In this document: positions 23,204 through 37,637 of the stretch, piece after piece
Numbering within the stretch: the first letter of the stretch is position 1
Layout: each line of letters begins with the position of its first letter
Assembly (NCBI GenBank): GCA_016219425.1
Contig: JACRNB010000015.1
Location: 1-64,000 of the forward strand
Reading direction: 5' to 3'
Source: Betaproteobacteria bacterium
Lineage (GTDB): Bacteria > Pseudomonadota > Gammaproteobacteria > Burkholderiales > Thiobacillaceae
Length of the DNA stretch: 64,000 nt
Notes under the pieces: model-generated
What the model was told of the DNA's origin: nothing
Seen by the model: only the letters and a program-made list of their open reading frames with translations
Databases searched by the model: none
Program-made: the position numbers and the translations under genes

Positions 23204-24151
23204 ATGGAACCTGATGCACGCTACACCTGGGTGGGCCTCGCCACCCTGGCCCTGGTCGCACTGCTCGCGGGCGGCCTGTACTGGCTGTTGGGCGGCGCGC
23301 AGAACCGCGAGGTCAAGCGCTACACCGTCTACTTTCAGAAGCAGTCGCTGGAAGGCCTTCAGATCAACAGTCAGGTGCGCATGCAGGGCGTCAAGGTCGG
23401 GCGCGTCACCGACTACGCCATCATGCCGGGTGAGGCCGGGCGGGTTCGGGTGCAGGTCGAGGTGGACCAGCGCACGCCGGTGATGGAGGGGGTGAAGGCG
23501 GTGATCAACCGCCATCTGGTCACGGGCCTCTCTGCCATCGACCTCAAGAACGACGGCAAGAGCCAGCAGCCCTACGCAACCATTCTCGTGGGCGAGGAGT
23601 ACCCGGTGATCGCCGAAGGCGTGCCCACCATCGCGGTCATGGCCAGCACCCTGGAGGAACTGGGCGACGCCGGGCAGGAGACGCTGCACCGGGTCAATCG
23701 CCTGCTCTCCGACCGCAATCAGAAGGCCCTCAGCGGCGCGCTGGAGAACCTGGAGACCGCCAGCGGCGAACTGGCGCGCACCCTGCCCGAGGTGCGCGGC
23801 GCCCTGGGCGAGGCCAAGGAGACCGCGCGCGGCCTGCGCCGTGCGGCGGACGAGGGCGTCGGCGTCGTGCGCCTGATCGGCGCGCGTGTGGACGCCCTCG
23901 CGGGCGAGGCGGGCGCCACCCTGGCGCAGACCCGCAAGAGCCTGGCCGGCCTGGACCAGAACCTGAACGGACTCGCCCTGCAATTGCGTCTGTCCGCCGA
24001 CCTGGGCGTGCAGGAGATGCAGACCACGGCGCAATCCCTGCGTCTCGCCAGCGACACCCTGCAAAAGACCGGACGCGGCCTGTCCGACCCGGCGCGCCTG
24101 ATCTACGGCCCGGCCAAGGGGGATCTCGGTCCCGGAGAGGAAGCGCCATGA
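23204..24151 (+). CDS. MCE-domain (MlaD/PqiB-like) lipid-transport protein
   Basis: A 315-residue protein with one N-terminal transmembrane helix (about 9-30), an MCE domain (about 38-120; VYFQKQSLEGLQINSQVRMQGVKVGRV) and a long helical C-terminal part (about 155-300). The helical tail is much longer than in E. coli MlaD and resembles the MCE proteins of other proteobacteria. It should be periplasmic and form a hexameric lipid channel. ATGA overlap with the next gene. Confidence 0.9.
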   Translation: MEPDARYTWVGLATLALVALLAGGLYWLLGGAQNREVKRYTVYFQKQSLEGLQINSQVRMQGVKVGRVTDYAIMPGEAGRVRVQVEVDQRTPVMEGVKAVINRHLVTGLSAIDLKNDGKSQQPYATILVGEEYPVIAEGVPTIAVMASTLEELGDAGQETLHRVNRLLSDRNQKALSGALENLETASGELARTLPEVRGALGEAKETARGLRRAADEGVGVVRLIGARVDALAGEAGATLAQTRKSLAGLDQNLNGLALQLRLSADLGVQEMQTTAQSLRLASDTLQKTGRGLSDPARLIYGPAKGDLGPGEEAP

Positions 24152-24753
24152 AAACCCTGTTCCTGATCCTCCTGGGCGGCGTCCTCGCCGCCTGTTCCCT
24201 GCCCGGCAAGGAACGCGCCCCGGTCACGCGCTATGTGCTCACCGACCCCGGCCCCGTCGTGCGCAGTACGAAGAGCCTCCCGGGCGTGCTGCTGGTGCGC
24301 GAGATGGAGACCTCGGATTTCTACCAGGACACCCGCCTCGCCTTCAGCCGCGAACCCGCCACGCGCGGGCACTACCAATACGCCTACTGGACCGAAGCGC
24401 CCGCCCGCCGCCTGACCTGGCTGCTGCGCCAGCGCCTGGAGAGCGGCGGCGGATTCGGCGTGGTGGACAGCACCGGCAGCGGCATCGCTGGCGACTACCA
24501 GCTCAACACCCGCCTGATCGACTTTTTCCACGACGCCAGCGTCCCGCCGGGCACGGCCCTGGTGGTGCTGGAGGCGGAACTGGTGAAACGCGCCAGCGGG
24601 CGTCTCGCCGCGCGGCGCGTGTTCGCGGCCCAGCAGGCCGCCGTCAGCCATGACGCGCGCGGCGCCGCCGAGGCCCTGGGGCGCGCCGCCAACCGGGTGA
24701 TGGACGAACTGGTGGTGTGGTTGCCGGAGGCGGCGGACGCCCCGCCCCGATAG
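24148..24753 (+). CDS. ABC-type transport auxiliary lipoprotein (PqiC-like)
   Basis: A 201-residue lipoprotein with lipobox LAAC near residue 16, followed by TRYVLTDPGPVV, the ABC_trans_aux (DUF330) opening. This family anchors MCE transporters to the outer membrane. It closes the four-gene lipid-transport operon. Confidence 0.85.
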   Translation: MKTLFLILLGGVLAACSLPGKERAPVTRYVLTDPGPVVRSTKSLPGVLLVREMETSDFYQDTRLAFSREPATRGHYQYAYWTEAPARRLTWLLRQRLESGGGFGVVDSTGSGIAGDYQLNTRLIDFFHDASVPPGTALVVLEAELVKRASGRLAARRVFAAQQAAVSHDARGAAEALGRAANRVMDELVVWLPEAADAPPR

Positions 24754-24762
24754 AATCGCCCC

Positions 24763-25317
24763 ATGCTCATCTACCTCCACGGTTTCAACTCCTCCGCACA
24801 ATCCGGCAAGGCTCGCTTCATGGGTGAATGGATGGCCGAACGGGGCCTGGCGGAGGCCTATTGCGCCCCCGACCTGCCGCATCGTCCCGCCGCCGCCATC
24901 CAGTTGCTGGAAGGCCTGATTGCCGCCGCGCCGGGTCGCAGCAAGCTCGTCGGCAGTTCCATGGGCGGCTTTTACGCCAACTATCTGGCGCGCAAACACG
25001 GCCTCAAGGCGGTGCTGATCAACCCCTGCGTGTCCTGCCACAAGAAGCTCGCCGATCAAGTGGGAACGCCGCAGAAGAACTGGCACAGCGGCGCGGAATA
25101 TGTCTTCAGCGCGCAACATCTGGCCGAATTGCAGCCCCTGGCCGCATCCCCCAACGCCCCGGAACGCACCCTGCTGCTGGTGGAGACCGGCGACGAGGTG
25201 CTGGACTACCGCGAGGCCGTGGCCTTCCACGCCGGCGCGCATCAAGTGGTGCTGGAAGGCGGCGACCACGGCTTCACCCGCTTCGCCGAAACCCTGCCCA
25301 AGATTCTGGAGTTCTGA
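24763..25317 (+). CDS. YqiA/YcfP-like alpha/beta-fold esterase
   Basis: A 184-residue hydrolase that opens with LIYLHGFNSSAQSGKA. The nucleophile elbow is GSSMGGFYA, the acid lies in VETGDEVLDY, and the His in GGDHGFTRF, so the triad is complete. The family has esterase activity, with an unknown natural substrate. It starts nine bases after the lipoprotein stop. Confidence 0.88.
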   Translation: MLIYLHGFNSSAQSGKARFMGEWMAERGLAEAYCAPDLPHRPAAAIQLLEGLIAAAPGRSKLVGSSMGGFYANYLARKHGLKAVLINPCVSCHKKLADQVGTPQKNWHSGAEYVFSAQHLAELQPLAASPNAPERTLLLVETGDEVLDYREAVAFHAGAHQVVLEGGDHGFTRFAETLPKILEF

Positions 25318-25337
25318 TGCACCTGCCACCCCACCCT

Positions 25338-25476
25338 GTAGCGCCGGCATCCCTGCCGGCTCCTGAGAAACACGAAGGGCAGCCCCGAGTGTTTGCCTCA
25401 CCCCCGCACGGGGCGGACTGGGCGCAGCCCGGCCCTGGGGGCGCTCTCAACTTGCCGGCAGGGATGCCGACGCTAC
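25338..25476. repeat. GTAGCGCCGGCATCC palindrome pair
   Basis: The arms at 25338-25362 and about 25451-25476 are inverted copies (type GCATCCCTGCC) flanking about 90 bases without a gene. Same family as 14979 and 61059. Confidence 0.75.
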
Positions 25477-25486
25477 CCCGCTAATC

Positions 25487-27352
25487 ATGTACGCACTGTA
25501 CGAAGAAGACGGCGACATCAAGGCCGGAACCATCCTGGCCGACAACGATGCCTCGCTCCAGGTCGAATCCCAGCACGGCAAGCGCACCAAGGTGAAGGCC
25601 GCCAGCATCCTGCTGCGTTACCCCAGCCCTGGCCCCAGCGAGGTGATGGAGACCGCGCGCGCGCAGCAGGCCGACCTGGATCTGGACTTTCTCTGGGAGG
25701 CGGCGGGGGCCGATGAATTCGGCTTCGAGGCCCTGGCCACGGACTATCACGGTCACAAGCCCACCGCGCCCGAGGCCGCCGCCATCCTCCTGGCCCTGCA
25801 CGGCGCGCCGATCTTTTTCCAGAAAAAGGGCAAGGGGCGCTACAAGGCCGCCCCCGCCGAACAGCTTGCCGCCGCCAAGACGGCGCTGGAACGCCGGGCG
25901 CGCGAGGCGGCGCAACGGGCGGAATGGGTGACGCAACTCAAGAATGACCAACTCCCCGAGGTCTTCCGCGCCAAGGTGTTCGAACTGGCGCACAAGCCGG
26001 ACAAGAACAGCCTGGAGTGGAAGGCCCTCAACGACGCCTGCGCCGACACCGGTCTCACCCCGGCGCGTCTGCTGGACCGCTGCGGCGCGATCCCGTCGCC
26101 GCACGAATTCCACCTGCAAGCCTTCCTGCTCGCCCAGTTCCCGCGCGGACGCGGTTTTCCCGCCCTGGAAGCGCCGCCGCCGCCGCCCGCGCTGCCGCCC
26201 GGCGACGCCCCGGCCTTCAGCATCGACGACGCCTCCACCACCGAGATCGACGACGCCTTTTCGGTGATCTTCCGCGCCGACGGCTCGGTGCGCGTGGGCA
26301 TCCACATCGCCGCGCCCGCGCTCGGCATCCCGCCCGGCAGCGACCTCGACCGCCTCGCCGCCGCGCGCCTGTCCACCGTCTACATGCCGGGCGACAAGAT
26401 CACCATGCTGCCGGAAGACCTGATCGGCCAGTACACCCTGGCGGAAGGGCGCGACTGCCCGGCGCTGTCGCTCTACGTCGAGGTGGGCGCGGACCACGTC
26501 ATCCGCGCCCTCACCACCCAGGCGGACGTGGTCCGCATTGCCGCCAACCTGCGCCACGAGACCCTGGAGCCGCTGTTCAACGAGGCCACGATAGGGCAGG
26601 GCGGCCCCGATTACCCGTTCCGGCGCGAGCTGGAGTGGCTGTACGGTTTTGCGCGCAGCCTGGAGACGGGGCGCGGCAAGGCGGATCAGATCCAGCGCAA
26701 CGATTACCTGTTCCGGGTGAGCAGCGCCCCCGGCGAACGACTTGAGACGGAAGAGCGTGTGGAGATCGTGCCGCGCCTGCGCGGCAACCCCATCGACAAG
26801 CTGGTGTCGGAGATGATGATCCTGGCCAACAGCCGCTGGGGCGGGCTGCTGGCGGAGAAGGACGTGGCCGGGGTGTACCGCGCGCAGACCGGCGGCAAGG
26901 TGCGCATGACCCTGAAACCCGCGCCGCACGAAGGTCTGGGCGTGGATTACTACGCCTGGAGCACCTCGCCGTTGCGGCGTTATGTGGACCTGGTGAACCA
27001 GCGCCAGATCCTCGCCGCCAGCCGCGGCGAGAGGCCGCCGCATGCGGGCAACGACCCGCTGCTGTTCGCGGCGGTGCGCGATTTCGAGCTGGCCTACGAC
27101 GCCTACAACGAGTTCCAGCGCCGCATGGAACGCTACTGGTGCCTGCGCTGGCTGATTCAGGAAGGCGTGCGCGAACTCGACGCCACCCTGTTCAAGGAGA
27201 CCCTGGTGCGCTGCGACGGCCTGCCCCTGATCGCGCGCGTCACCGGCGCGCCCACGCTGGAGAACGGCGCGCGCATCCGCGTGGCGCTGTCGGACTTCGA
27301 CCTGCTCGACGTGGACCTGGCGTGCCGGTATCTGGGGCCGGCGGAGGCATAA
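25487..27352 (+). CDS. RNase II-family (RNB domain) exoribonuclease
   Basis: A 621-residue RNB protein. An SH3-like N-terminal region (YALYEEDGDIKAGTIL) is followed by a helical segment and the catalytic domain from about 245: SIDDASTTEIDDAFSV supplies the Asp cluster, HIAAPA follows, and the closing region has YAWSTSPLRRYVDLVNQRQI. A short S1-like tail ends the protein. It degrades RNA 3' to 5'. This type, with a nonstandard N-terminus, is common in betaproteobacteria beside a TonB-like gene, as here. Confidence 0.9.
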   Translation: MYALYEEDGDIKAGTILADNDASLQVESQHGKRTKVKAASILLRYPSPGPSEVMETARAQQADLDLDFLWEAAGADEFGFEALATDYHGHKPTAPEAAAILLALHGAPIFFQKKGKGRYKAAPAEQLAAAKTALERRAREAAQRAEWVTQLKNDQLPEVFRAKVFELAHKPDKNSLEWKALNDACADTGLTPARLLDRCGAIPSPHEFHLQAFLLAQFPRGRGFPALEAPPPPPALPPGDAPAFSIDDASTTEIDDAFSVIFRADGSVRVGIHIAAPALGIPPGSDLDRLAAARLSTVYMPGDKITMLPEDLIGQYTLAEGRDCPALSLYVEVGADHVIRALTTQADVVRIAANLRHETLEPLFNEATIGQGGPDYPFRRELEWLYGFARSLETGRGKADQIQRNDYLFRVSSAPGERLETEERVEIVPRLRGNPIDKLVSEMMILANSRWGGLLAEKDVAGVYRAQTGGKVRMTLKPAPHEGLGVDYYAWSTSPLRRYVDLVNQRQILAASRGERPPHAGNDPLLFAAVRDFELAYDAYNEFQRRMERYWCLRWLIQEGVRELDATLFKETLVRCDGLPLIARVTGAPTLENGARIRVALSDFDLLDVDLACRYLGPAEA

Positions 27353-27353
27353 G

Positions 27354-28319
27354 GTGGGGCGACGCCGCGTCCAGGTCGCGCAGGCGCCCTCGCCTGCAAG
27401 CGGGCCGCTTGCCCGCCTGAACCTTGCCGGCGGGGGCGCGTACCAGCCGCGCAGTTCGGCGGACTGGGACGACTTGTTCAATCAAGCCGTCCTGTTCTCG
27501 GTCATCGTCCATGTCGCCCTGATCTTCGGTTTGCAATTCAAGGCCGCGAACCCGCGCCTGTTCGAGAACACGAACCCGCCCCTGGACGTGGTGCTGGTGA
27601 ACGCCAAGTCGCAGACCAAGCCGATCAAGGCGGACGTGCTGGCGCAGGCCAACCTGGACGGCGGCGGCAACGTGGCGGAGGACCGGCAGGCGAAATCGCC
27701 GTTGCCCGTGGCCAAAACGGACCAGGTGATGAGCGCCGAGGCGGAGTCGAACGCTCGGGTGAAGGCGCTGGAGACTCAGGCCCGTGCGCTGATGACCCAG
27801 CTCCACTCCACCTATCAGGCGCCGGAGCAGAAACCGCAGCCGGCGGCGCAGCCTCAGGCCGCCCCCCCCGCGCCCGCGCCGGTGAATCTGGCGGCCAAGT
27901 CCCTGGAGATGGCGAGGCTGCAAGCCCGCATCGACCAGCAGATGGACGAGTACAACAAGCGTCCCCGCCGCGCCTTCGTCGGCGCGCGCGCGCAGGAGTA
28001 CACCTTCGCCCAGTACGTGGAAGATTGGCGCATCAAGGTGGAACGCATCGGCAACCTGAACTACCCGGAGGCGGCGCGCCAGAACGGCCTGCACGGCACG
28101 CTGATCCTCACCGCCAATGTGCGCGCCGACGGCAGCCTGGAATCCGTGCAGATTGACCGTTCATCGGGCTCCAAGGTGCTGGATGCCGCTGCCGTCCGGA
28201 TTGTGGAGATGTCGGCGAAATTCCCGCCCTTTCCCGAGTCCATGCGCCAGAAGGTGGACATCCTGGGCATCACGCGGACCTGGGCGTTTACGCGATCCGA
28301 CCAATTCAATTCTCAGTAA
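27354..28319 (+). CDS. TonB-like energy transducer
   Basis: A 321-residue protein with a transmembrane helix (about 46-63), a long Pro/Ala/Gln-rich periplasmic spacer (about 115-190), and a TonB_C domain (NYPEAARQNGLHGTLILTANVRADGSLESV). It starts at a GTG one base after the RNase stop. Residues about 8-16 read VAQAPSPAS and are encoded by half of a palindromic repeat whose full copy is in mshM, where the same peptide appears. No ExbB/ExbD is nearby. Confidence 0.85.
   Translation: MGRRRVQVAQAPSPASGPLARLNLAGGGAYQPRSSADWDDLFNQAVLFSVIVHVALIFGLQFKAANPRLFENTNPPLDVVLVNAKSQTKPIKADVLAQANLDGGGNVAEDRQAKSPLPVAKTDQVMSAEAESNARVKALETQARALMTQLHSTYQAPEQKPQPAAQPQAAPPAPAPVNLAAKSLEMARLQARIDQQMDEYNKRPRRAFVGARAQEYTFAQYVEDWRIKVERIGNLNYPEAARQNGLHGTLILTANVRADGSLESVQIDRSSGSKVLDAAAVRIVEMSAKFPPFPESMRQKVDILGITRTWAFTRSDQFNSQ
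27375..27397. repeat. half of the GCAGGCGCCCTCGCCTGC palindrome, in frame
   Basis: GTCGCGCAGGCGCCCTCGCC matches the left arm of the perfect palindrome at 46191-46252 with one change. It encodes the same VAQAPSPAS peptide. The right arm has decayed. Confidence 0.7.
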
Positions 28320-28357
28320 CCCGGCGTCAAACAGGCAGGCGGCGTAGCTTCCACCGG

Positions 28358-30133
28358 CTACGAGCGCATCCTGGACCCCGCCCACGCGCGCAGCGCCGCC
28401 GCCGCCTCGCCCACCACGCCCTCCCAGCCGTCCCGCTGCCGGAACAGGCGGAGGGTTGCGGGATACCAGAGCGAATCGCTTCGTTCGTGCAGCCAGCGCC
28501 AGTCCGTACCGCGCTTGGGCAGCAGCACCCAGCACGGCTTGCCCAGTGCGCCGGCGACATGGGCGATGGCGGTATCGACGCAGATCACCAGATCCAGTTG
28601 CGCGACGAGGGCGGCGCTGTCGGCAAAGTCCCGTATCTCGCTGCCGAGGTGCGTCAGCGCTTGACCCGGCGGCGGATGGGCGGCCTCGTCCTCGCCCTGG
28701 CCCTTTTGCAGCGAGACGAAGACGACGCCGGGCGCGGACCAGAGCGGCGCCAGGGTGGACAACCCCGGCATGGAGCGATGGGCGTCATTGCGGTGGCTGG
28801 CGCTGCCCTTCCAGACCAGGCCAACCCGTAACGCCCCCTCCGGCAGGCGCTCGCGCCAGCGCTCCAGGCGCACGGGGTCGGCGGCGAGATAGGGCAGGCG
28901 CGCCGGGATCGTGTCCAACCGCATCCCCAGCCGCCAGGGCAGGCTCATGACGAAGATCCAGAAGTCATAGGCGGGCAGCGGGTCTTCCTTGGCGAGCACG
29001 ACATCCACCCCGTCCAGGGTGCGCAACAACTCGCGCAGGGGCGGGCTGCACAGCAGGATCACCTGGGCGCACCCCCGTTCCTTGAGCAGCGGAGCGAAAC
29101 GGGCGAACTGGATCTCGTCGCCGAATCCCTGCTCCAGCCAGACCACGATGCGCTTGCCGGTCAGGTCTTCGCCCTGCCAGACGGGGTCCAGGTCGGGAAT
29201 GTCGTGCGGTCTTTGCACGTTGGGGTTGCAGCGCGTCTCGTACCGCGCCCAGCCCTCTTCGTAGCGCCCCTGGGAGAGCAGGATCAGGCTCAGGTTCCAG
29301 GCCGCATCGGCATGTTCGGGCCTGACGCGCAGAGTCGCGCGGTAGAACGACTCGGCCTCGGCTTGCTGTTCCTGGTCGCCGTACAGCACGCCCAGGTTGT
29401 AGAGCGCGTCCACATGGTCCGGACAGAGGCGCAGCGCCGCGCGGTAGGCGGCCTCGGCCTCGTCCAGGCGACCGGTCTCCTTGTAGAGCACGCCCAGGTT
29501 GTTGTGCGCGTTGGCATGGTCGGGACGCAGGCGCAGCGCCGCGTGATAGGCCGCCTCGGCCTCTTGCGGTCGCTCGCTTTCCTTGCACACCACGCCCAGA
29601 TTGTTGTGCGCGTCGGCGTGGCCGGGACGCAGGCGCAGGGCCTCGCGGTAAGCGGCCTCGGCCTCGTCCAGGCGTCCGCTCTCCTTGAAGATCACGCCCA
29701 GGTTGTTGTGCGCGTCGGCCTGCCGGGGGTTGCATGACAGGGCTTCGCAGTAGGCCGCTTCGGCCTCGTCCAGGCGACCGGCCTCCTTGTAGAGCACGCC
29801 CAGATTGTTGTGCGCGGGGGCGAATCCGGGGTCGCAACGCAGGGCCTCGTGGTAGGCCGCCTCGGCCTCGTCCAGCCGCCCCGCCTCCTTGTGCAGCACG
29901 CCCAGGTTGTTGCGCGCGCCGGCGTGGTCCGGGTTGCGGCGCAGGGCCTCGCGGTAGGCGGCCTCGGCGGCATCCAGGCGACCGGCCTCCTTGTGCAGTA
30001 CGCCCAGGCGGTTATGGGCGTCGGCCCGTTCGGGCCGGAGCCGGATCAGCGCCTCCCAGTACAGGCGCGCCAGAAAGGAAAAACCCCGCATGGGCGGGGT
30101 TTTCGTGAAGAGTCGCAATAACGGCAACGCCAA
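28358..30133 (-). CDS. TPR-repeat glycosyltransferase-family-9-like protein
   Basis: A 591-residue cytosolic protein. Residues about 30-305 hold eight or nine near-identical 34-residue TPRs (LGVLHKEAGRLDEAEAAY type). The C-terminal half is a GT-B-like domain: GKRIVVWLEQGFGDEIQFAR, GLVWKGSASHRND, FVSLQKGQ, and VICVDTAIAHVAGALGKPCW. Similar proteins use TPRs to bind a protein and modify it, as O-GlcNAc transferases do, though this fold is closer to heptosyltransferases. A TTG at 30133 has AGGA six bases upstream, overlapping the previous stop. An ATG at 30091 is possible but lies inside a terminator hairpin. Confidence 0.85.
   Translation of the reverse strand: MALPLLRLFTKTPPMRGFSFLARLYWEALIRLRPERADAHNRLGVLHKEAGRLDAAEAAYREALRRNPDHAGARNNLGVLHKEAGRLDEAEAAYHEALRCDPGFAPAHNNLGVLYKEAGRLDEAEAAYCEALSCNPRQADAHNNLGVIFKESGRLDEAEAAYREALRLRPGHADAHNNLGVVCKESERPQEAEAAYHAALRLRPDHANAHNNLGVLYKETGRLDEAEAAYRAALRLCPDHVDALYNLGVLYGDQEQQAEAESFYRATLRVRPEHADAAWNLSLILLSQGRYEEGWARYETRCNPNVQRPHDIPDLDPVWQGEDLTGKRIVVWLEQGFGDEIQFARFAPLLKERGCAQVILLCSPPLRELLRTLDGVDVVLAKEDPLPAYDFWIFVMSLPWRLGMRLDTIPARLPYLAADPVRLERWRERLPEGALRVGLVWKGSASHRNDAHRSMPGLSTLAPLWSAPGVVFVSLQKGQGEDEAAHPPPGQALTHLGSEIRDFADSAALVAQLDLVICVDTAIAHVAGALGKPCWVLLPKRGTDWRWLHERSDSLWYPATLRLFRQRDGWEGVVGEAAAALRAWAGSRMRS
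30079..30103 (-). terminator. terminator hairpin inside the start region of the TPR gene
   Basis: On the minus strand the sequence reads AAAACCCCGC, loop CCAT, GCGGGGTTTTT: a ten-pair stem with a T run, 38 bases after the poly-Ser gene stop. It overlaps the N-terminal codons of the TPR gene (TKTPPMRGFSF), so read-through or coupled translation would be needed to express that gene. Confidence 0.75.
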
Positions 30134-30141
30134 GCTGCGTC

Positions 30142-30885
30142 CTAGCTGCTGCTGGAACTGCTGGAGCTGCTACTGCTGCTGGAACTGGAGCTGCTCGTCC
30201 CGCCGCACTTCTGCGCGCTGGTCAGGCTCTGGCTCTGGTTGATCGGGCACTGGGCGGTATTGCCGCCGTCGCAATTGGAAGATGTGCCGCCGTACAGGCT
30301 GGTGAGGTACTCCAGAGTGGTGATGCGCCCGCCGGTCTGCTGGAACAGGGTGTCGTTGCCGTTCATGGCGTTCTTCACCATGGTCTTCACTTCGGTGACC
30401 GTGAGGGGGTAGTTGTCGTGGGTGCTGATGGCGCCCTTGAAGTAGGCGTTGATCAGGCTGGCGACGCCGGCGCGCGCCAACGCGCCGTTCACCGGGCTCT
30501 TGGAGGGATAGCCCGAGCTGCCGTAACTCTGTGTGCACAGCACCCGGATCAGGGTGAGCGTGGACTTGCCGTCGAAGGTGACGCCGAAGATGCTGCTGAA
30601 GGTGGCGGTGCGGCTGATGCCGGAGGGCCAAACCGTCTTGTCTTGTTTCCAGCAGCCGGGGGAGAGGCCAAGGCCGCCGCAGGAACCGGTGGCGTGGGAC
30701 TGGTTGTTGGAGATCTGGCCCGACACCATGCAGTTGTAGGGCAATGCGCCCAGGGCGGGCTTGGACATCAGGGCGGCCAGCGCGACCGGCCCGGCCAGGG
30801 CGCCCTGGGTTAGACGGCGACGCAGAGGATCGACCCGTTCGGCATCCGGCGTCTGGATGCGGTCCATCTCATTGGGATTCGACAT
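30142..30885 (-). CDS. secreted protein with C-terminal 17-serine tail
   Basis: A 247-residue protein with a Tat-like signal (RRRLTQGALAGPVALAALM, about 22-40, then ALGA). The body contains LSPGCWKQDKTVWPSG, which resembles the SPGyWKnHP..WP motif of other secreted bacterial proteins, and several Cys. It ends GGT followed by 17 consecutive Ser. The Ser codons are mixed (ten AGC, four TCC, three AGT), so the tail is not a fresh triplet expansion. The ATG at 30885 has a GAGG RBS; upstream GTG and ATG codons are weaker. It lies directly downstream of the HprK-related kinase operon and has its own sigma-54-like promoter. Confidence 0.75.
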   Translation of the reverse strand: MSNPNEMDRIQTPDAERVDPLRRRLTQGALAGPVALAALMSKPALGALPYNCMVSGQISNNQSHATGSCGGLGLSPGCWKQDKTVWPSGISRTATFSSIFGVTFDGKSTLTLIRVLCTQSYGSSGYPSKSPVNGALARAGVASLINAYFKGAISTHDNYPLTVTEVKTMVKNAMNGNDTLFQQTGGRITTLEYLTSLYGGTSSNCDGGNTAQCPINQSQSLTSAQKCGGTSSSSSSSSSSSSSSSSS

Positions 30886-30925
30886 GTCTGACCTCATGAA
30901 ACTCTGGGTTGTAAGCACTGGCTCC

Positions 30926-30942
30926 TAGCAAGAATAACGCCA
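30926..30942 (-). promoter_or_regulatory. sigma-54 (-24/-12) promoter of the poly-Ser gene
   Basis: The minus strand reads TGGCGTTATTCTTGCTA, close to the consensus TGGCAC-N5-TTGCA, with GG-N10-GC spacing. The start would be near 30916, about 30 bases before the ATG. A GGAAAATATTCC dyad-like site at 30995-31006 lies upstream. Confidence 0.7.
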
Positions 30943-31014
30943 GTTTTTATTGAGTAAAGGATTCAACGGCTTATTTGGCGCTTGCGCTGCGGTTGGAAAA
31001 TATTCCGACAGGGC

Positions 31015-32088
31015 TCAGGTCGATTCTTCCGGTTGCCGGCGCAGGGCCTTGCGCGCCAGGTGGGGCAGCAGCCGGTGCGGGGGCATCTTCAGCCAGTGGC
31101 TGCGCACATACAGGGCGAAGCGCGCCAGCCCGCTCCAGGCATCGTCGAACTCGATATGGGCGGTGGCGAACCCGCGCCGGAACAGGCCGTCCATGAACCC
31201 GGCGCGCAGGCCGATGGTGCGTTGCGCCCAGGCCAGGGCGGGGACCGGCATCGGCGTCGCCAGCAAGGCGGCGGCATGGCGCAGGGCGTAGGCCAGGGGG
31301 CGCGCCAGATCCAGTTCGGCGGCGCGCGCCGTCAGGCTTGTCCAGAACTCGTCACGAGCGCCGAATTCCCGTAGCAGGGCGTCGATGTCGGCCAGATTGC
31401 GCAGGCCATAGCCCCATTCGCCTTCGTGGTAGAGGTGGGTGGCGGCGTGGATTACCAGGTCTGCGTCGCCTAGCCGGTGCAGTTCCGCGTCCAGGCGTCG
31501 GACGCCGGTCCAGAGTCGTTCCGCCTGCGGTTTGCAGCGGGCGGTGAGGGGCAGGATGTTGTGGTGCAGGTCCAGGGTGCTGCCGCGCCGGAAATGGGTC
31601 ACGGGCGGCAGTTCGTGCATCCATTCGCGGTAGTAGCGCTGGTCGTAGGCGTCGTGGCCGGCGCCGAACCAGCCGGCGAAGCGCAGCAGGGTCTCGGCCT
31701 GGTCCAGCCGGTCGCGCGGCAGCAGGAGGTCGATGTCTCCCAGGATGCGGCCCCGCGCCGGGGACAGGCCGGCCATGACGTAGGCGGCGCCCTTGAGCAG
31801 GACGATGGGGCATGCCAGAGGCGCCAGCGCCTGACGCAGCTTGTGCACCTCCCAGCGCACGGCGCGGTGCTGGCGCTCGGCGACGATCTCCGCTGCCCGC
31901 ATGTGGTGGCGCACGATCTCCGGCAGGCCGTCGAACACGCCGGCGGAGCGGACGTCCGCCGCCAGCCGCGAGAGCAGCCCGCAGGCGCGGGCGTGCCGCA
32001 GCAGGCCATCCCAGGCGGCGGCGTCCAGTCCGGCCATGGACGCGGGTTCGCGCAGGGCGCGCAGGAGGGTGTGGAAGGCGGTGTTCAA
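31015..32088 (-). CDS. nucleotidyltransferase-family protein (HPr-rel-A cluster)
   Basis: A 357-residue protein of the NTP_transf_5 type. PIVLLKGAAYVMAGL and GRILGDIDLLLPRDRLDQA contain the G-x-DID metal-binding motif of nucleotidyltransferases, and the C-terminal half is helical with HAATHLYHEGEWGYGLRNLADID. It starts at a TTG whose bases overlap the kinase stop (TTGA). The family occurs beside PqqD-like and HprK-like genes; its substrate is unknown. Confidence 0.8.
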   Translation of the reverse strand: MNTAFHTLLRALREPASMAGLDAAAWDGLLRHARACGLLSRLAADVRSAGVFDGLPEIVRHHMRAAEIVAERQHRAVRWEVHKLRQALAPLACPIVLLKGAAYVMAGLSPARGRILGDIDLLLPRDRLDQAETLLRFAGWFGAGHDAYDQRYYREWMHELPPVTHFRRGSTLDLHHNILPLTARCKPQAERLWTGVRRLDAELHRLGDADLVIHAATHLYHEGEWGYGLRNLADIDALLREFGARDEFWTSLTARAAELDLARPLAYALRHAAALLATPMPVPALAWAQRTIGLRAGFMDGLFRRGFATAHIEFDDAWSGLARFALYVRSHWLKMPPHRLLPHLARKALRRQPEEST

Positions 32089-32996
32089 GTCACCAGCCCC
32101 TCGAACGCGGCCAGGGCGTGGTCGAGATCGCCGTAGCTGAAGTCCAGGCACTCGCTGCGGTCGATCAGGCCGCGCAGGGCCGCGAAGCCGGTCTCGCCCA
32201 GGACGCTGTAGTTGAAGCTGTTCTCGGCGGCGTAGACAAAGGTTCCGGCGCGCGGGCGCGGCTTGAAGCGGGCCGGCGCGCCCGCCTGCCAGCGCGGGAA
32301 CACCACCCAGGCCGGTAGCGCCGGTTCGGCCATGCGCGCCACCGCATCGCCGGGCGGACGCAGGTGGATCACCGCGCCCTTGTGGGTGTCGCGCGAGAGG
32401 GGGCCGTAGACCGCCTCGGGGAAGCGCGCGCGGATGATGTCGATGGAGGCGTTCTTGAGGTTGACCGGGCGCGCCAGGGGCAGCAGCAGGCCATCTTCCA
32501 GGCGCACCAGGGCGATCTCGTCGGAGAGCAGACGCCAGCCCGACAGGGCCAGGGCGGCGGTGAGGGTGCTCTTGCCCGCGCCTGGTTCGCCCGGCAGCAG
32601 CACGGCGCGCCCGTTTTTTTCCAATACCGCCGCGTGCAGGCTGAGCAGGTGGTGGGCGTAACTGGCGATGCACCAGTTCATGCCCCATTCCAGGCTGGCC
32701 AGGGCGTGCTCCGCCGGCAGGGGTTTGAACGGGGCGTGCGCGTCGTGCATGAAGCGGATCTGGGGCCGCAGCCAGCGGCGCAGGCCGGGTACGCGTTCCA
32801 CGCGCACATGGAAATCCCGCAGGGGGGCGGCTTCTTCGGTCACAGGGAAGTCCGCATAGAGACCGTGCAGACCCTCCGCCACCCTGGCCTCGGCGCTGGT
32901 GATGCGGAAACGGAACGGGCCGGTGGCGAGGTCCAGGCCGCGGGCCAGACGTTGCGCCAGTTCGGCGCGGGTGAGGTCGGCGATGCGCAGGTTCAT
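32085..32996 (-). CDS. HprK-related kinase A
   Basis: A 303-residue protein. Walker A GEPGAGKS starts at residue 136, and the fold resembles the C-terminal kinase domain of HPr serine kinase HprK. SLHAAVLEKNGRAVLLPGEP leads into the P-loop, and LLSDEIALVRLED looks like the Mg-binding strand. The N-terminal 120 residues differ from HprK. No HPr or PTS gene is nearby, so the substrate is unlikely to be HPr. ATGA overlap with the PqqD-like gene before it. Confidence 0.85.
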   Translation of the reverse strand: MNLRIADLTRAELAQRLARGLDLATGPFRFRITSAEARVAEGLHGLYADFPVTEEAAPLRDFHVRVERVPGLRRWLRPQIRFMHDAHAPFKPLPAEHALASLEWGMNWCIASYAHHLLSLHAAVLEKNGRAVLLPGEPGAGKSTLTAALALSGWRLLSDEIALVRLEDGLLLPLARPVNLKNASIDIIRARFPEAVYGPLSRDTHKGAVIHLRPPGDAVARMAEPALPAWVVFPRWQAGAPARFKPRPRAGTFVYAAENSFNYSVLGETGFAALRGLIDRSECLDFSYGDLDHALAAFEGLVT

Positions 32997-33325
32997 GCCG
33001 ATTCCAGCAGGTCCAGTTCGTACAGTTCCTGCAGGGCCTCGCCCAGGGCGTCGTCGAGCCAGGAGCGGTCGGCCTCCGCCACCACGTCCCGCAGGGAGGC
33101 GAACAGGGCGGCGTGGTCGGCGGGGCCGGCGCGCAGGGTTTCCAGAATCATGCGCGAGAGGGCGGAGATCCAGCGCGTATCGCCGCTGCCGGTGTGATAC
33201 AGCACGCTCTGGCCGTCCCAGTCGGCGAACAGGTAGTCGCCCTCGCGCGTGAGCCGCCAGGGGTGCGGCGCACGCCCCCCGGTCCCCTCCGCGCGATTCA
33301 CTTCCGTTCCGGCTGTCTCGTCCAT
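32993..33325 (-). CDS. PqqD-like peptide-chaperone protein (HPr-rel-A cluster)
   Basis: A 110-residue protein with a PqqD-type winged-helix core: WDGQSVLYHTGSGDTRWIS, then two helices (AALFASLRDVVAE, LDDALGEALQELYELDLLE). PqqD proteins hold peptides for modifying enzymes. The first 25 residues look disordered. It heads the three-gene kinase operon and is transcribed away from mshG. Confidence 0.8.
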   Translation of the reverse strand: MDETAGTEVNRAEGTGGRAPHPWRLTREGDYLFADWDGQSVLYHTGSGDTRWISALSRMILETLRAGPADHAALFASLRDVVAEADRSWLDDALGEALQELYELDLLESA

Positions 33326-33346
33326 GGCCCTTCGTCCCGATGCGGG

Positions 33347-33418
33347 CCGCACGATACCCCAACCTCCCCGCCCCCTCCATCCCGGTTCCACATCGAAGCG
33401 CCTCCCTGTATCGTGCGG
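33347..33418. promoter_or_regulatory. mirror-image elements in the divergent promoter region
   Basis: CCGCACGATAC (33347-33357) and GTATCGTGCGG (33408-33418) are perfect inverted copies 50 bases apart. Each presents TATCGT at about the -10 position of one of the divergent genes (kinase operon, mshG). They may be paired promoters or operators. Confidence 0.45.
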
Positions 33419-33442
33419 GCGTCTCCGGCTCCGCCCCCCTCC

Positions 33443-34660
33443 ATGCCCGGTTTTTCCTACAAAGCGCGCAACAATCGCGGCGAGCAGCTTACGGGTCGCC
33501 TGGAGGCGGCGTCCGCCGACGCCACCGCCGAAGAATTGATGCGCACCGGCCTGATTCCCATCGAGATCCGCCCCGAGGCCGCCGCCAAGCCCCCGCTCCT
33601 GCTCCGCTTCAGCGAGGAAAAGGTGGAGGCCACCGACATCATGCTGTTCGCGCGCCAGATGGCGAGCCTGTTGCGCGCCGGCGTGCCCATCCTGCGCGCC
33701 CTGGGTTCCCTGGCCGAGTCCACTCCGCACAAGCGTTTCCAGGCCGTATTGAACGATGTGCGCGAGGGTCTGTCCGCCGGGCGCGAGATGTCCGCCTGCC
33801 TGCGCAAGCACCCCACGGTGTTCGAGCCCCTGTTCATCAACATGGTGCGGGTGGGCGAATCCACCGGACGCCTGGATGACGTGTTCCTGCGCCTGTTCCA
33901 CCACCTGGAGTTCGAGCGCGAGATGCGCGAACGGGTGAAGGGCGCGCTGCGTTACCCCACCTTTGTCGTGATCGCCCTGATGGCCGCGCTCGCGGTGATC
34001 AACGTCCTGGTCATTCCCGCCTTCGCCAAGGTGTACAAGAGCGCCCACGCCGACCTGCCCATCTTCACCCGCGTACTGATCGGGATGTCGGAGTGGACCG
34101 TGACCTGGTGGCCTCTGCTGCTGGGCGGGCTGATCGCCGCCGTCCTGGGCGTGCGCGCCTGGAAGCGCACCGCGGAAGGTCGTTATCAGTGGGACAAGTG
34201 GATGCTGCGCATCCCCATCATCGGCGCAGTGCTGAACAAGGCCACCATGGCGCGCTTCGCCAAGGGGCTGGCCATGGCCTACCAGAGCGGCGTGCCCATC
34301 GTGCAGGGGCTCACCCATACCGCCCAGGTGGTGGGCAACGCCTTCGTCGCCAGCCGGGTGGAACAGATGCGCGACGGCGTGGAGAGGGGCGAGTCCCTGT
34401 CGCGCACGGCGCGAGCGAGCGGGGTGTTCAGCCCCATCGTGCTCCAGATGATGTCCGTGGGCGAGGAAACCGGCGAACTGGACCGCCTCCTCAACGAGAT
34501 CGGCGATCTCTATCAGCGCGACGTGGAGTACCAGATCCGCAACCTGTCACAGCAGATCGAGCCCATCCTCATCGCCGGCCTGGGCTTCATCATCGTCACG
34601 GTCGCCTTGGGGGTGTTCCTGCCGGTCTGGGACATGGGCTCCCACATGATGAAGCGATGA
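33443..34660 (+). CDS. mshG: MSHA biogenesis inner-membrane platform protein MshG
   Basis: A 405-residue type II secretion F/PilC-family protein with two homologous halves: QMASLLRAGVPILRAL and RVGESTGRLDDVF; then GLAMAYQSGVPIVQGL and SVGEETGELDRLL. Three transmembrane helices lie near 172-195, 220-245 and 375-400. It anchors the assembly machinery of a type IVa-like pilus. It is first in the msh operon; the usual mshE ATPase gene before it is absent. Confidence 0.92.
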   Translation: MPGFSYKARNNRGEQLTGRLEAASADATAEELMRTGLIPIEIRPEAAAKPPLLLRFSEEKVEATDIMLFARQMASLLRAGVPILRALGSLAESTPHKRFQAVLNDVREGLSAGREMSACLRKHPTVFEPLFINMVRVGESTGRLDDVFLRLFHHLEFEREMRERVKGALRYPTFVVIALMAALAVINVLVIPAFAKVYKSAHADLPIFTRVLIGMSEWTVTWWPLLLGGLIAAVLGVRAWKRTAEGRYQWDKWMLRIPIIGAVLNKATMARFAKGLAMAYQSGVPIVQGLTHTAQVVGNAFVASRVEQMRDGVERGESLSRTARASGVFSPIVLQMMSVGEETGELDRLLNEIGDLYQRDVEYQIRNLSQQIEPILIAGLGFIIVTVALGVFLPVWDMGSHMMKR

Positions 34661-34709
34661 GGTTTCCAGTCACTTATGACTCAAGTCTTCGCATTTTGTG
34701 AGCAGATTC

Positions 34710-34787
34710 GTAGCCTGGATGGAGCGCAGCGGAATCCGGGATCGCACCGCGGAATTCCCCGGATTCCGCGGCGCTCCATCCGGGCTA
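34710..34787. repeat. GTAGCCTGGATGGAGCGCAG inverted repeat
   Basis: The arms TAGCCTGGATGGAGCGCAGC and GCGCTCCATCCGGGCTA flank a GC-rich centre between mshG and mshA. Another repeat family, one copy in this window. A weak TTGAAA/AAGATT promoter (34818-34846) follows. Nothing else is seen in 34661-34903. Confidence 0.75.
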
Positions 34788-34903
34788 CCTCTTTGGCCCC
34801 GGCTTGGGATGATTTGCTTGAAAGCGCCGGAAATGCGCTAAAGATTGATGCAGCAGTGCCGATAAACCCGTCGTATCCGAGTCCACCAAAAGAGGAGCAG
34901 TCC

Positions 34904-35371
34904 ATGCGTACCCGTCAACAAGGTTTCACCATGATCGAACTCATCATGGTCATCGTCATCCTCGGTGTGTTGTCCGCGGTGGCCATGCCGCGCTTCTTTG
35001 ATCTGTCCACGGACGCCCGCATGTCCAAGATGCAGGCCTCGCTGGGCGCGCTCAAATCCGCCTCCGCCATCGCCCACAGCGCCTATCTGGTGGCAGGCAC
35101 CGCACCGACCTCCGTCACGCTGGAAGGCAGCGCCGTACCCCTGGTGAACGGCTACCCGGATGTGAATGCCACCGCGGCCTCTTCCGGCATCGCCATCGCC
35201 GCGGGCGGTCTCGCCGACTACACCCTGTCCGCCACCGCCACGGTGCTCACCATTCGTGCGGACAACACGGCGGGGCGCGCCGCCTGCGCCATCACCTACA
35301 CCGAGGCCCTCAACACCAGTACGCCGCCCGTCATCGTCTCCACCGGCATCACCGCAGCCAACTGCGACTGA
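34904..35371 (+). CDS. mshA: MSHA major pilin-like prepilin
   Basis: A 155-residue type IV prepilin with leader MRTRQQG, cleaved before FTMIELIMVIVILGVLS. The C-terminal AACAITYTE...AANCD gives the disulfide-loop Cys pair of MSHA pilins. A strong RBS (AGAGGAG) precedes the ATG. It is the only one of the operon's prepilins with its own good RBS, which suits the major subunit. Confidence 0.88.
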   Translation: MRTRQQGFTMIELIMVIVILGVLSAVAMPRFFDLSTDARMSKMQASLGALKSASAIAHSAYLVAGTAPTSVTLEGSAVPLVNGYPDVNATAASSGIAIAAGGLADYTLSATATVLTIRADNTAGRAACAITYTEALNTSTPPVIVSTGITAANCD

Positions 35372-35393
35372 TCCCGCGCACGGGCGTTCGAAG

Positions 35394-35843
35394 GTGAAAC
35401 CGCGCACCGCCGGTTTCACCTTGGTGGAACTGGTCGCCATCATCTCCATCCTCGGGATACTGATGGCCGTCGCCGCACCCCGATTTTTCAGCGCCAACAC
35501 CTTTGCGGGTCGGGGTTTTCGCGACGATGCCGCATCCTTCCTGCGTTATGCCCAGAAACGGGCCATCTCCCGGCGCGGCGATGTGGCCGTGGTGGTGGAG
35601 GCCAGCGGCCTGACTCTCTGCACCACTGCCGGGGCCGCCTGCGCTGCGGCCAACCAACTTGCCGGCCCGGACGGGCAGACGCCGTTCCAGAGCCTCACAC
35701 CCAACGGCGTCACCCTGTCCGGCAGCCGCACCAGCGTCCTGTTCGACGCCCAGGGCCGACCCGATGCCGCACTCACCCTCACCATCACCGGCGACAGCGC
35801 CCGCACCCTCACGGTGGAAGCGGAGACCGGCTATGTGCACTGA
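35394..35843 (+). CDS. mshC: MSHA minor pilin MshC-like
   Basis: A 149-residue prepilin starting at a GTG (VKPRTAG, cleaved before FTLVELVAIISILGIL). The middle shows a GspH-like globular domain (FRDDAASFLRYAQKRAISRRGDVAVVV trimmed to its core). Two Cys flank the GAA-C-A stretch. The reading frame is open much further upstream, but the prepilin leader sets the start. Confidence 0.82.
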   Translation: MKPRTAGFTLVELVAIISILGILMAVAAPRFFSANTFAGRGFRDDAASFLRYAQKRAISRRGDVAVVVEASGLTLCTTAGAACAAANQLAGPDGQTPFQSLTPNGVTLSGSRTSVLFDAQGRPDAALTLTITGDSARTLTVEAETGYVH

Positions 35844-36300
35844 AAGGGCGGCCCGTGGGTTCAGTCTGGTGGAAGCCGTCATGTTCATCCTGGTGGTCTC
35901 CATCGCCCTGGTCGTGCTGGTGCAGGCCTATGTGGTTTCCACCACGGGTCTGGCGGAGCCGGTGATCCGGCGTCAGACCCTGGCCATCGCCCAGGCCCTG
36001 ATGGAAGAGATCCAGCTCAAGGACTTCGCCAACCCGAGCGGCGGCTATGCCGGCCCCTACAGCGCCGCCACCCGCAGCCAGTTCGATGACGTGATGGACT
36101 ACAACGGCCTTGCCCTTACCGGCATCAGCGACCTCACCAACACCCCCATCGTCGGCCTCTCCGGCTACAACGCCAGCATCAGCGTCAGCGCCGCCGCCTT
36201 CGGCAATGTCCCCCTGGCCGCAGGCTGGCGCATCCTCGTCACCGTCACCAACCCCAATGGCGGTCAGGTGACGCTGGAAGGGTACAAAGCGGATGCGTAA
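35833..36300 (+). CDS. mshD: MSHA minor pilin MshD-like
   Basis: A 155-residue prepilin with leader MCTERAARG, cleaved before FSLVEAVMFILVV. The body contains RRQTLAIAQALMEEIQLKDF, the typical helix of MshD. It overlaps the end of mshC by 11 bases and the start of mshO by 8. Confidence 0.85.
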   Translation: MCTERAARGFSLVEAVMFILVVSIALVVLVQAYVVSTTGLAEPVIRRQTLAIAQALMEEIQLKDFANPSGGYAGPYSAATRSQFDDVMDYNGLALTGISDLTNTPIVGLSGYNASISVSAAAFGNVPLAAGWRILVTVTNPNGGQVTLEGYKADA

Positions 36301-37108
36301 GGCGCGCGGTTTCACCCTGATCGAACTCATCGTCGTCATGACGGTGATCGGCATGCTCGCCGGCATTGTCTCGGTGTTCATCCGCAACCCGATGGAGGCC
36401 TACATGGCGGGAACCCGGCGCGCGGAACTGGTGGACATCGCCGACACCGCCCTGGCGCACCTGACGCGGGAAGTGCACGGCGCACTGCCCAACAGCCTGC
36501 GCGTCACGCTCTCCGGCGGCGCGTATTACCTGGAATTCCTGCCGGTGCAGGACGGCGGTCGCTACCGCGCCGAACTCACCGGCGCGGGGACCGGAAACGT
36601 ACTGGACTTCACCTCCGGCGCTGACAGCAGTTTTGACGTGCTGGGCCCCCAGGTCACGGCCAGCGCCGGGCAATATCTGGTGATCTACAACCTGGGCCTG
36701 GACGCATCCTCGGACGCCTGGCAGGGGGACAACCGCCGCACCGTCACCAGCGTCGGCAGCGTCGCCACCCTGGCCTTCACCGCCACCGGCGCGCCATTCC
36801 CGCTGGAATCCCCTGGGAAACGGTTCTATCTCACCGGCGGCCCGGTGAGCTATGTGTGCGACCCCGCCGCAGGGACCATCCGGCGCTACTGGGGCTACGC
36901 CCTGCAATCCGCCCAGCCCACCAGTTTTGCCAGCGGCAGCAACGCACTGCTTGCCAGTCGGGTGAAGGACTGCCGTTTCGCCTACGACCCCGGCGCCGCC
37001 GCCAGCATGGGCCAGCTCACCACCTGGATACAGTTGGAAAACGCCGAGAGCGGCACGCCGGAACAGGTCTCCCTGTACCGCGAACTGGCGGTGAACAACG
37101 ATGCCTAA
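36293..37108 (+). CDS. mshO: MSHA minor pilin MshO-like
   Basis: A 271-residue prepilin with leader MRKARG, cleaved before FTLIELIVVMTVIGML. It has a large globular domain with KRFYLTGGPVSYVCD and a C-terminal Cys (VKDCRFAYDPG). Size and order between mshD and mshP match MshO. Confidence 0.87.
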   Translation: MRKARGFTLIELIVVMTVIGMLAGIVSVFIRNPMEAYMAGTRRAELVDIADTALAHLTREVHGALPNSLRVTLSGGAYYLEFLPVQDGGRYRAELTGAGTGNVLDFTSGADSSFDVLGPQVTASAGQYLVIYNLGLDASSDAWQGDNRRTVTSVGSVATLAFTATGAPFPLESPGKRFYLTGGPVSYVCDPAAGTIRRYWGYALQSAQPTSFASGSNALLASRVKDCRFAYDPGAAASMGQLTTWIQLENAESGTPEQVSLYRELAVNNDA

Positions 37109-37637
37109 CCCCCCCCACAACCCAGAACCCTCTCCCTTGAGGGGAGAGGGCAGGGAGAGGGTGTGGAGGGCGCAGCCCGACTTGCCCTCTCCCCAACCCC
37201 TCCCCCTCCGGGGGGGAGGGGCTTACAGGAACGGCTTTGCCCTCCCCACCGCCATCTTCCTGCTGGTGGTGATGGGTAGCCTGGCGGCCTGGCTCTCGCG
37301 CCTGACCGAGTCCACCCTGGCCCAGGACGCCCTGGAACTGGAAGGCGAACGCGCCTGGCTGGCGGCGCAGGCGGGACTGGAGGCGGGGCTGTATGCCGCC
37401 ACCCATGCCGGCGTCTGCGCCCAGACCGTGACGTTCGCCAGCGGCAGCCAGCTCGAACGCTTTCCCGCCACGGTTGCCTGCGCCTCCAGCACGGCGGACG
37501 AGGGCGGCGCCACCGTGACCCTGATCCAGATCACCAGCGTGGCCTGCAATCAGCCCGCCAGCGGCGTCTGCCCCAACCCTGCGCCGCCCTCGCCGGAATA
37601 CGTCGAGCGCCGCGTCCAGGCCACGGTGGAACCATGA
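37101..37637 (+). CDS. mshP: MSHA protein MshP-like with repeat-derived leader
   Basis: A 178-residue protein whose core starts NGFALPTAIFLLVVMGSLAAW, the MshP/PilX-like N-terminus. Between the ATG and that core lie about 40 residues (EPSPLRGEGRERVWR...PLPLRGGG) encoded by a palindromic element. If the ATG at 37101 is used, the prepilin leader is 45 residues instead of about 5-10. Internal GTG or TTG codons could give a shorter form. The following mshQ start overlaps its stop (ATGA). Confidence 0.8.
   Translation: MPNPPHNPEPSPLRGEGRERVWRAQPDLPSPQPLPLRGGGAYRNGFALPTAIFLLVVMGSLAAWLSRLTESTLAQDALELEGERAWLAAQAGLEAGLYAATHAGVCAQTVTFASGSQLERFPATVACASSTADEGGATVTLIQITSVACNQPASGVCPNPAPPSPEYVERRVQATVEP
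37128..37221. repeat. palindromic element inserted at the 5' end of mshP
   Basis: CCCTCTCCCTTGAGGGGAGAGGG-type arms occur in both orientations, closing with CCCCCTCCGGGGGGGAGGGG. It keeps the reading frame open and starts 27 bases after the mshP ATG. Related to the element in mpl. Confidence 0.75.

Follow-up and report, generated by a model that had tools for sequence, protein, structure and literature searches.

An exported protein with a twin-arginine-type signal accompanies the HPr-rel-A kinase cassette and is a candidate for serine modification

The HPr-rel-A cassette and its exported neighbour

We analysed a 64,000-nucleotide stretch of a Betaproteobacteria bacterium of the Thiobacillaceae (assembly GCA_016219425.1, contig JACRNB010000015.1, positions 1 to 64,000), hereafter the window, in which a minus-strand run of five genes encodes a PqqD-like protein, a kinase related to HPr kinase, a nucleotidyltransferase, an exported protein and a protein with tetratricopeptide repeats (TPR) that resembles glycosyltransferase family 9 (GT9). 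Profile matches and coordinates agree on all five, as a preliminary description made from the sequence had proposed. The same description recognised the HPr-rel-A set in the first three genes, which indeed constitute this cassette: TIGR04352 and TIGR04353 score above their cut-offs, the PF14907 gene overlaps the kinase gene, and 4-base overlaps join the PqqD-like to the kinase gene and the kinase to the nucleotidyltransferase gene. As named, HPr-rel-A comprises three genes, its substrate unnamed according to that description; here a fourth, exported component is added, which we call the partner.

32993-33325, minus strand: PqqD-like peptide-binding protein (PqqD_rel_X) of the RRE type, RRE being the recognition element of ribosomally synthesized and post-translationally modified peptides (RiPPs); TIGR04353, 44.7 bits, cut-off 35
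32085-32996, minus strand: HprK-related kinase A (HprK_rel_A), a P-loop kinase of the PEPCK/HprK type; TIGR04352, 380 bits, cut-off 200
31015-32088, minus strand: nucleotidyltransferase NTP_transf_5, TTG start; PF14907, 180 bits
30142-30885, minus strand: exported partner protein (family A), 247 residues; relatives adjoin the cassette, and it matches no known family
30745-30822, minus strand: RR-type (Tat-like, Tat denoting twin-arginine translocation) signal, partner residues 22-47; R22 in 89 of 90 and R23 in 90 of 90 family A proteins
30697-30732, minus strand: C-x-x-S-G-x-x-S-(G/N)-N-x-S stretch, partner residues 52-63, with candidate acceptor serines S55 and S59 (and S63)
30145-30195, minus strand: 17-serine C-terminal tail of the partner; relatives carry no such tail

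Co-occurrence of the partner and the kinase

Three samples were used to assess how the partner is distributed relative to the kinase: 398 genomes drawn from the window's phylum (phylum sample); 61 genomes comprising the window's own and 60 relatives (relative sample); and the best 80 loci from a kinase-profile scan of GTDB genomes (named sample), including Thiobacillus, Duganella, Massilia, Nitrosomonas, Methylomonas and Gallionella. The named sample partly overlaps the others, as at least three of its loci (L173, L174 and L184) are contigs already among the relatives.

The kinase scored above the TIGR04352 cut-off in 61 of the 398 phylum genomes, and the 60 neighbourhoods fetched (from every kinase genome except the window's) yielded three partner families, A (the window's), B and C, whose profiles were each searched against all 398 genomes at E 1e-4. 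Profile B matched 39 genomes, all within the 61 kinase genomes and none among the 337 others (Fisher 1e-38). Profile A matched 12, of which 10 were kinase genomes; the two outside (G340, E 1e-9; G397, E 7e-14) matched through the body only, inside other secreted proteins. Other secreted proteins that have no signal-serine stretch likewise end in the family A body (G-C-T-x-G-Y-W-K ... L-N-A), as at L171 1842-4094 and L172 3487-4353. Profile C matched 13 genomes, 11 with the kinase (10 at E <1e-50; G325 was already counted under B) and two without (G284 and G442, both weak), and one further partner was recognised by eye (G395, locus L133). An RR-signal exported partner was thereby found in 60 of the 61 kinase genomes, with a partial or weak match in 4 of the 337 others; the single kinase genome that lacked one, G247, is 57% complete and has its kinase at a contig end. 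For profile matches, the contrast (59 of 61 versus 4 of 337) gives a Fisher value of 6e-63, a figure inflated by the derivation of the profiles from kinase neighbourhoods. The only evidence free of this bias is the near-absence of the partner from the other genomes and its recovery in six genomes where it does not adjoin the kinase. The partner lay alongside the kinase in 54 of the 61 genomes and elsewhere in these six (G082, G129, G141, G184, G272 and G325), where a PqqD-like gene stood beside it in four of the five places read (with a weak match in G325). At L164, L166, L167, L168 and L169 the PqqD-like gene is paired with the partner, and the kinase and nucleotidyltransferase genes are not alongside.

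The other samples gave a similar picture. Among the 61 genomes of the relative sample, one protein query found the partner in 25, and in 21 of the 24 neighbourhoods from genomes other than the window's (L033-L056) the stretch also carried the cassette kinase; the remaining three were a stretch with two partners and no kinase (L033), a short contig with the nucleotidyltransferase and an interrupted partner (L050) and a chance match (L056). The kinase exceeded its cut-off in 31 of the 61, and profile scans together with the fetched places located a partner gene in every one of these; that of G032 is interrupted by two TGA codons, and that of G019 sits on a separate contig. In the named sample, the profiles recognised a partner within 4-kb flanks at 78 of the 80 loci. 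At one of the other two, L227, the contig ends on the partner side; the other, L252 from a Phycisphaeraceae bin, carries the cassette without a partner and, upstream, an open reading frame (ORF) that by eye resembles a transposase, which could mean that the partner was displaced or that the contig is foreign. The usual gene order is partner, PqqD-like, kinase, nucleotidyltransferase, with the partner last in most relatives from the window's genus. Tandem, diverged partners occurred in 5 of the 24 relative neighbourhoods (L033, where the enzymes are not in the stretch, L034, L037, L040 and L043) and in L245 of the named sample (L173 and L040 are one contig). Together, these results strongly support a dedicated pairing of the exported protein with the kinase cassette, as its placement in the kinase system by the preliminary description had implied.

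The poly-serine tail of the window's partner, which that description had put forward as a substrate or mimic and whose co-occurrence with the kinase it had offered as a check, behaved differently: the exported protein travels with the kinase and the tail does not. The protein does end in exactly 17 consecutive serines, and their mixed codons (10 AGC, 4 TCC and 3 AGT) indicate that the tail is not a simple triplet expansion; each of the other five window frames reaches a serine run of at most 4 or 5. Such a run in mixed codons is what would favour a role as substrate or decoy, but the tail is absent from all 31 relatives of alignment A1, and no partner of the 78 named loci has more than five serines among its last 20 residues (ORF choice is doubtful in L222), while the enzymes are kept throughout. 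A role as substrate or decoy is accordingly very improbable, and we set it aside. One partner elsewhere (L134, 7090-7917, minus strand) has a C-terminal region that is serine-rich and not poly-serine.

Candidate acceptor serines and a possible route of modification

No Pfam or NCBIfam family matched the window's partner protein, which carries an RRRL signal, and most cassette partners are approximately 130-290 residues long. Conservation was assessed in 90 family A proteins pooled across samples (L214, L222, L225 and exact duplicates excluded; the interrupted L050 and the chance match L056 were left out of the partner seed). Only R22 (89 of 90), R23 (90), C52 (88), S55 (89) and S59 (88) were kept in at least 88 proteins, followed by N146 (83), G73 (82), C69 (81), W86 (79) and S63 (74); S55 was lost solely in L200, and S59 in L200 and, through a gap, in L243. 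In the smaller alignment A6 (49 sequences, for which 48 were taken from the list of 52 named partners), mean column identity was 15% and the invariant columns were R22, R23, S55 and S59. Columns of the 90-row alignment were more alike in the signal region than in the mature region (0.42 versus 0.26), which suggests that the signal region may be a leader recognised by the PqqD-like protein. In a predicted structure, residues 71-200 formed a mostly confident, mainly helical domain and residues 1-70 averaged below 60 per ten-residue block, which places S55 and S59 between signal and domain in a possibly flexible stretch.

Families B and C share the RR signal type. Family B proteins have the signal RRR-x-LLKG-AAGVPAIVTLQSGAALA and most end in C-W-x-S-F, with C171, W172 and S174 invariant among 26 aligned (A2); family C proteins end in C-F-A-S-L-Q, with C121 and S124 invariant among seven (A3). 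A serine occurs within the nine residues preceding the first cysteine in all 33 of these proteins, which is unsurprising for so common a residue.

The Walker A motif of the kinase (GEPGAGKST) begins at residue 136, exactly where the preliminary description had placed it, and H121, K142 and D159, followed by E160, were invariant in the kinase alignments (A7 included 40 of the 80 named kinases). The kinase resembles HPr kinase/phosphorylase in fold, in its Walker A region and in the His and Asp before and behind that motif, which we take to be the catalytic positions of HprK; the HPr-kinase profile scored it at 20.7 bits, far under the cut-off of 240. A second HprK-like match in the window's genome was weak and below the cut-off (28 bits; G000:C10:221969-222178, L032). 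In the nucleotidyltransferase, K99 G100 and D118-x-D120 were invariant among 28 aligned sequences. The PqqD-like family profile A8, built with 36 of the 65 named PqqD-like proteins and with a window query that lacked its last four C-terminal residues, found its best PDB matches in TbiB1 (E 0.002) and TfuB1 (E 0.0034), presumably both lasso RREs; PF05402 (PqqD) matched 10 of 37 PqqD-like members and lasso_PqqD_Strm matched 2 of 37.

Enzymes of these three types act together on peptides in two known settings. In the lasso clusters of paeninodin and pseudomycoidin, as described in PMC9266682 and PMC8498205, an HprK-like kinase acts on serine alongside a hexose-adding nucleotidyltransferase and a discrete RRE (B1): PadeK phosphorylates the C-terminal Ser of paeninodin, and PsmN adds hexoses to phosphoserine, with one or two hexoses on the pseudomycoidin phosphate, although the review authors allow that PsmN acts as a nucleotidyltransferase and that a host glycosyltransferase then takes over. 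In Bacillota, the core of the clusters for linear polyphosphorylated peptides (LPP; PMC13381572) likewise comprises an RRE, an HprK-like kinase and a nucleotidyltransferase (NTP transferase), all three of which also occur in the window's cassette. LppK adds phosphate to the linear core peptide at Ser3, three residues behind the leader, and the window's partner has a conserved serine just behind its signal, a candidate acceptor in a comparable place; each LPP cluster has one to three client ORFs, like the loci with tandem partners. The differences are also clear. Lasso clients are short peptides, whereas the HPr-rel-A client would be a protein; LPP clients measure 35-200 residues and their clusters include an MsbA-like transporter and a signal peptidase of archaeal type (PMC13381572), whereas the HPr-rel-A client has an RR signal, mostly spans about 130-290 residues and belongs to another phylum. 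Among the five genes and the nine flanking proteins at 23204-37634, we found neither an archaeal-type signal peptidase or MsbA-like transporter nor a lasso cyclase (Asn-synthase-like) or B2 peptidase; MlaD and ABC_trans_aux proteins lie at 23204-24753. Transglut_core3 (PF13471), which we take to be the lasso B2 domain, was absent from the window's genome and matched 2 of 14 control genomes.

From these precedents, which share the three enzyme types, phosphorylation and capping can be transferred to S55 or S59 of the partner. We thus propose, with moderate confidence, that the cassette modifies a protein and that its client is the adjacent exported protein, which would be phosphorylated at S55 or S59, capped and exported by Tat. 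The PqqD-like protein would hold the N-terminal leader of the client (the RR signal region), the HprK/PEPCK-type kinase would phosphorylate a serine just behind the signal, and the NTP_transf_5 enzyme would cap the phosphate, most likely with a sugar or nucleotide; the modified protein would then exit by the Tat route and signal peptidase would remove the leader. Tat exports folded proteins, so modification could be completed before translocation, and the exported protein is probably modified inside the cell; the window's genome encodes TatC. More broadly, a serine is likely to carry a phosphoryl, nucleotidyl or glycosyl group: in family A one near the mature N-terminus, and in families B and C perhaps one close to the C-terminus.

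Two other assignments were weighed against this proposal. The acceptor could instead lie at the C-terminus, on a serine like that of phosphorylated lasso peptides (PadeK and PsmK both act on a C-terminal Ser; PMC9266682 and PMC8498205), within C-W-x-S-F in family B, C-F-A-S-L-Q in family C or the Y-F-x-S-L-Y of part of family A. The invariant cysteines, tryptophan and serines at the ends of aligned B and C members agree with this placement, but no C-terminal serine column reaches 60% among the 90 family A partners and several profile-B partners of the named set have no such motif (for example, L232, L235 and L240), leaving a C-terminal acceptor unlikely, if the strongest of the alternatives. 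The partner could also regulate the enzymes or act as their effector, or it could be exported to function downstream of some separate small-molecule product, as co-occurrence alone cannot separate a substrate from a co-factor and the partner bodies are very diverse. This seems improbable: the PqqD-like gene stays by the partner when the kinase and nucleotidyltransferase are elsewhere (four of the five places read), diverged partners stand in tandem, the invariant serines lie in a low-confidence, possibly flexible stretch, and the three enzyme types act jointly on peptides in lasso and LPP clusters.

Several points weigh against modification of a Tat-exported partner at S55 or S59. Matches in the kinase neighbourhoods arise partly by construction of the A, B and C profiles, and solely the best 8-10 first-look candidates per genome were scored. 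The serine positions of the three families do not align, and the invariant C-terminal C-(W/F/Y)-x-S of aligned B and C members makes a second acceptor site possible. Low per-residue confidence at residues 41-69 is common to residues 1-40 and may partly reflect a thin alignment. Tat export is suggested only by the motif with the near-invariant R22 and R23; the Tat-signal profile TIGR01409 matched 1 of 49 family A partners and not the window protein. Lasso kinases are reported with His-Lys-Asp-Asp, whereas the HPr-rel-A kinase has Asp-Glu (the alignment included no lasso kinase). Finally, the authors of the LPP study could delete lppN without any visible effect (PMC13381572).

If the proposal holds, a curated enzyme set that has so far lacked any known substrate, and whose kinase scores above cut-off in 61 of the 398 phylum genomes, would gain a dedicated candidate client with two or three named serines, connecting proteobacterial protein export with a serine phosphorylation so far known from lasso peptides and Bacillota LPPs and offering a defined place to learn the function of PF14907 enzymes. 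In the open-licence literature, we found no paper naming HPr-rel-A, TIGR04352 or HprK-related kinase and none joining PqqD with HPr kinase and twin-arginine; the main text of PMC13381572 has no mention of Pseudomonadota, proteobacteri- or PqqD.

Neighbouring genes and genomic setting

Three further features lie downstream of the partner:

30079-30104, minus strand: terminator-type hairpin 3' of the partner gene (-17.2 kcal/mol, z -4.2)
28358-30133, minus strand: TPR plus GT9-like protein, TTG start; weak PF01075 match, probably outside the system
28326-28376, plus strand: fbp remnant (fructose-bisphosphatase, named by eye) beneath the 3' end of the TPR gene; 17 residues, 82% identity

The preliminary description had included a TPR plus GT-B glycosyltransferase in the system. 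The TPR gene is present, and its GT-B designation rests on a weak match to the GT9 (heptosyltransferase) profile PF01075 (29 bits for the whole protein, 31 bits for the C-terminal half alone). The hairpin, followed by T, separates it from the partner gene; none of 200 shuffles was as good, and a terminator consensus scan did not list it. Such a strong hairpin between the genes suggests that the TPR gene is probably outside the partner's unit, and with a TTG codon upstream of the hairpin its true start is uncertain. All nine relatives of the same family that were viewed have an fbp gene (by eye) between the cassette and a TonB-like gene, and a 4.5-kb search of the window recovered the remnant listed above, identical at 82% of positions to a relative's fbp (E 3e-5). 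A search for an fbp relative in the window's own genome, run without a positive control, found none, and that genome has no other full-length TPR/GT9-like copy. On this comparison of gene neighbourhoods, the TPR/GT9-like gene appears to be a local replacement of fbp, and membership in the system was not upheld.

Around the cassette more widely, the XrtA-system glycosyltransferase TIGR03087 occurred near 19 of the 60 phylum neighbourhoods (identity checked on two) and near none of the 80 named loci, whose flanks were shorter; the window's genome has XrtA on another contig than the cassette. We would guess that, for part of the family, the modified protein has a role in an exopolysaccharide coat. 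In its widest form, HPr-rel-A would be a widespread proteobacterial route to phosphate-linked conjugates on Tat-exported proteins: phosphoserine formed behind the signal would receive a sugar from the NTP_transf_5 enzyme, and outside the cell the protein would be anchored by phosphodiester in an exopolysaccharide coat. HPr-rel-A would then be a RiPP-type system with a Tat signal as leader and a whole protein as product, of which a literature search found no other example. We regard this reading as doubtful, and it is weakened by the uneven occurrence of XrtA and exopolysaccharide neighbours (19 of 60 versus 0 of 80).

A TPR-sulfotransferase was present in 13 of the 60 phylum neighbourhoods (L092, L100, L101, L102, L110, L114, L115, L116, L119, L121, L122, L123 and L146) and in none of the 80 named loci; it is possibly an extra tailoring step, and a putative sulfotransferase gene is mentioned in Firmicutes lasso clusters (PMC8498205). 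In the window, on the plus strand at 33443-41662, lie pilus-type genes (T2SSF and N-methylated pilins) as well as a gene for a large beta-helix/LamG protein with DUF6701 at its end, which we take to be an MSHA-locus-like set.

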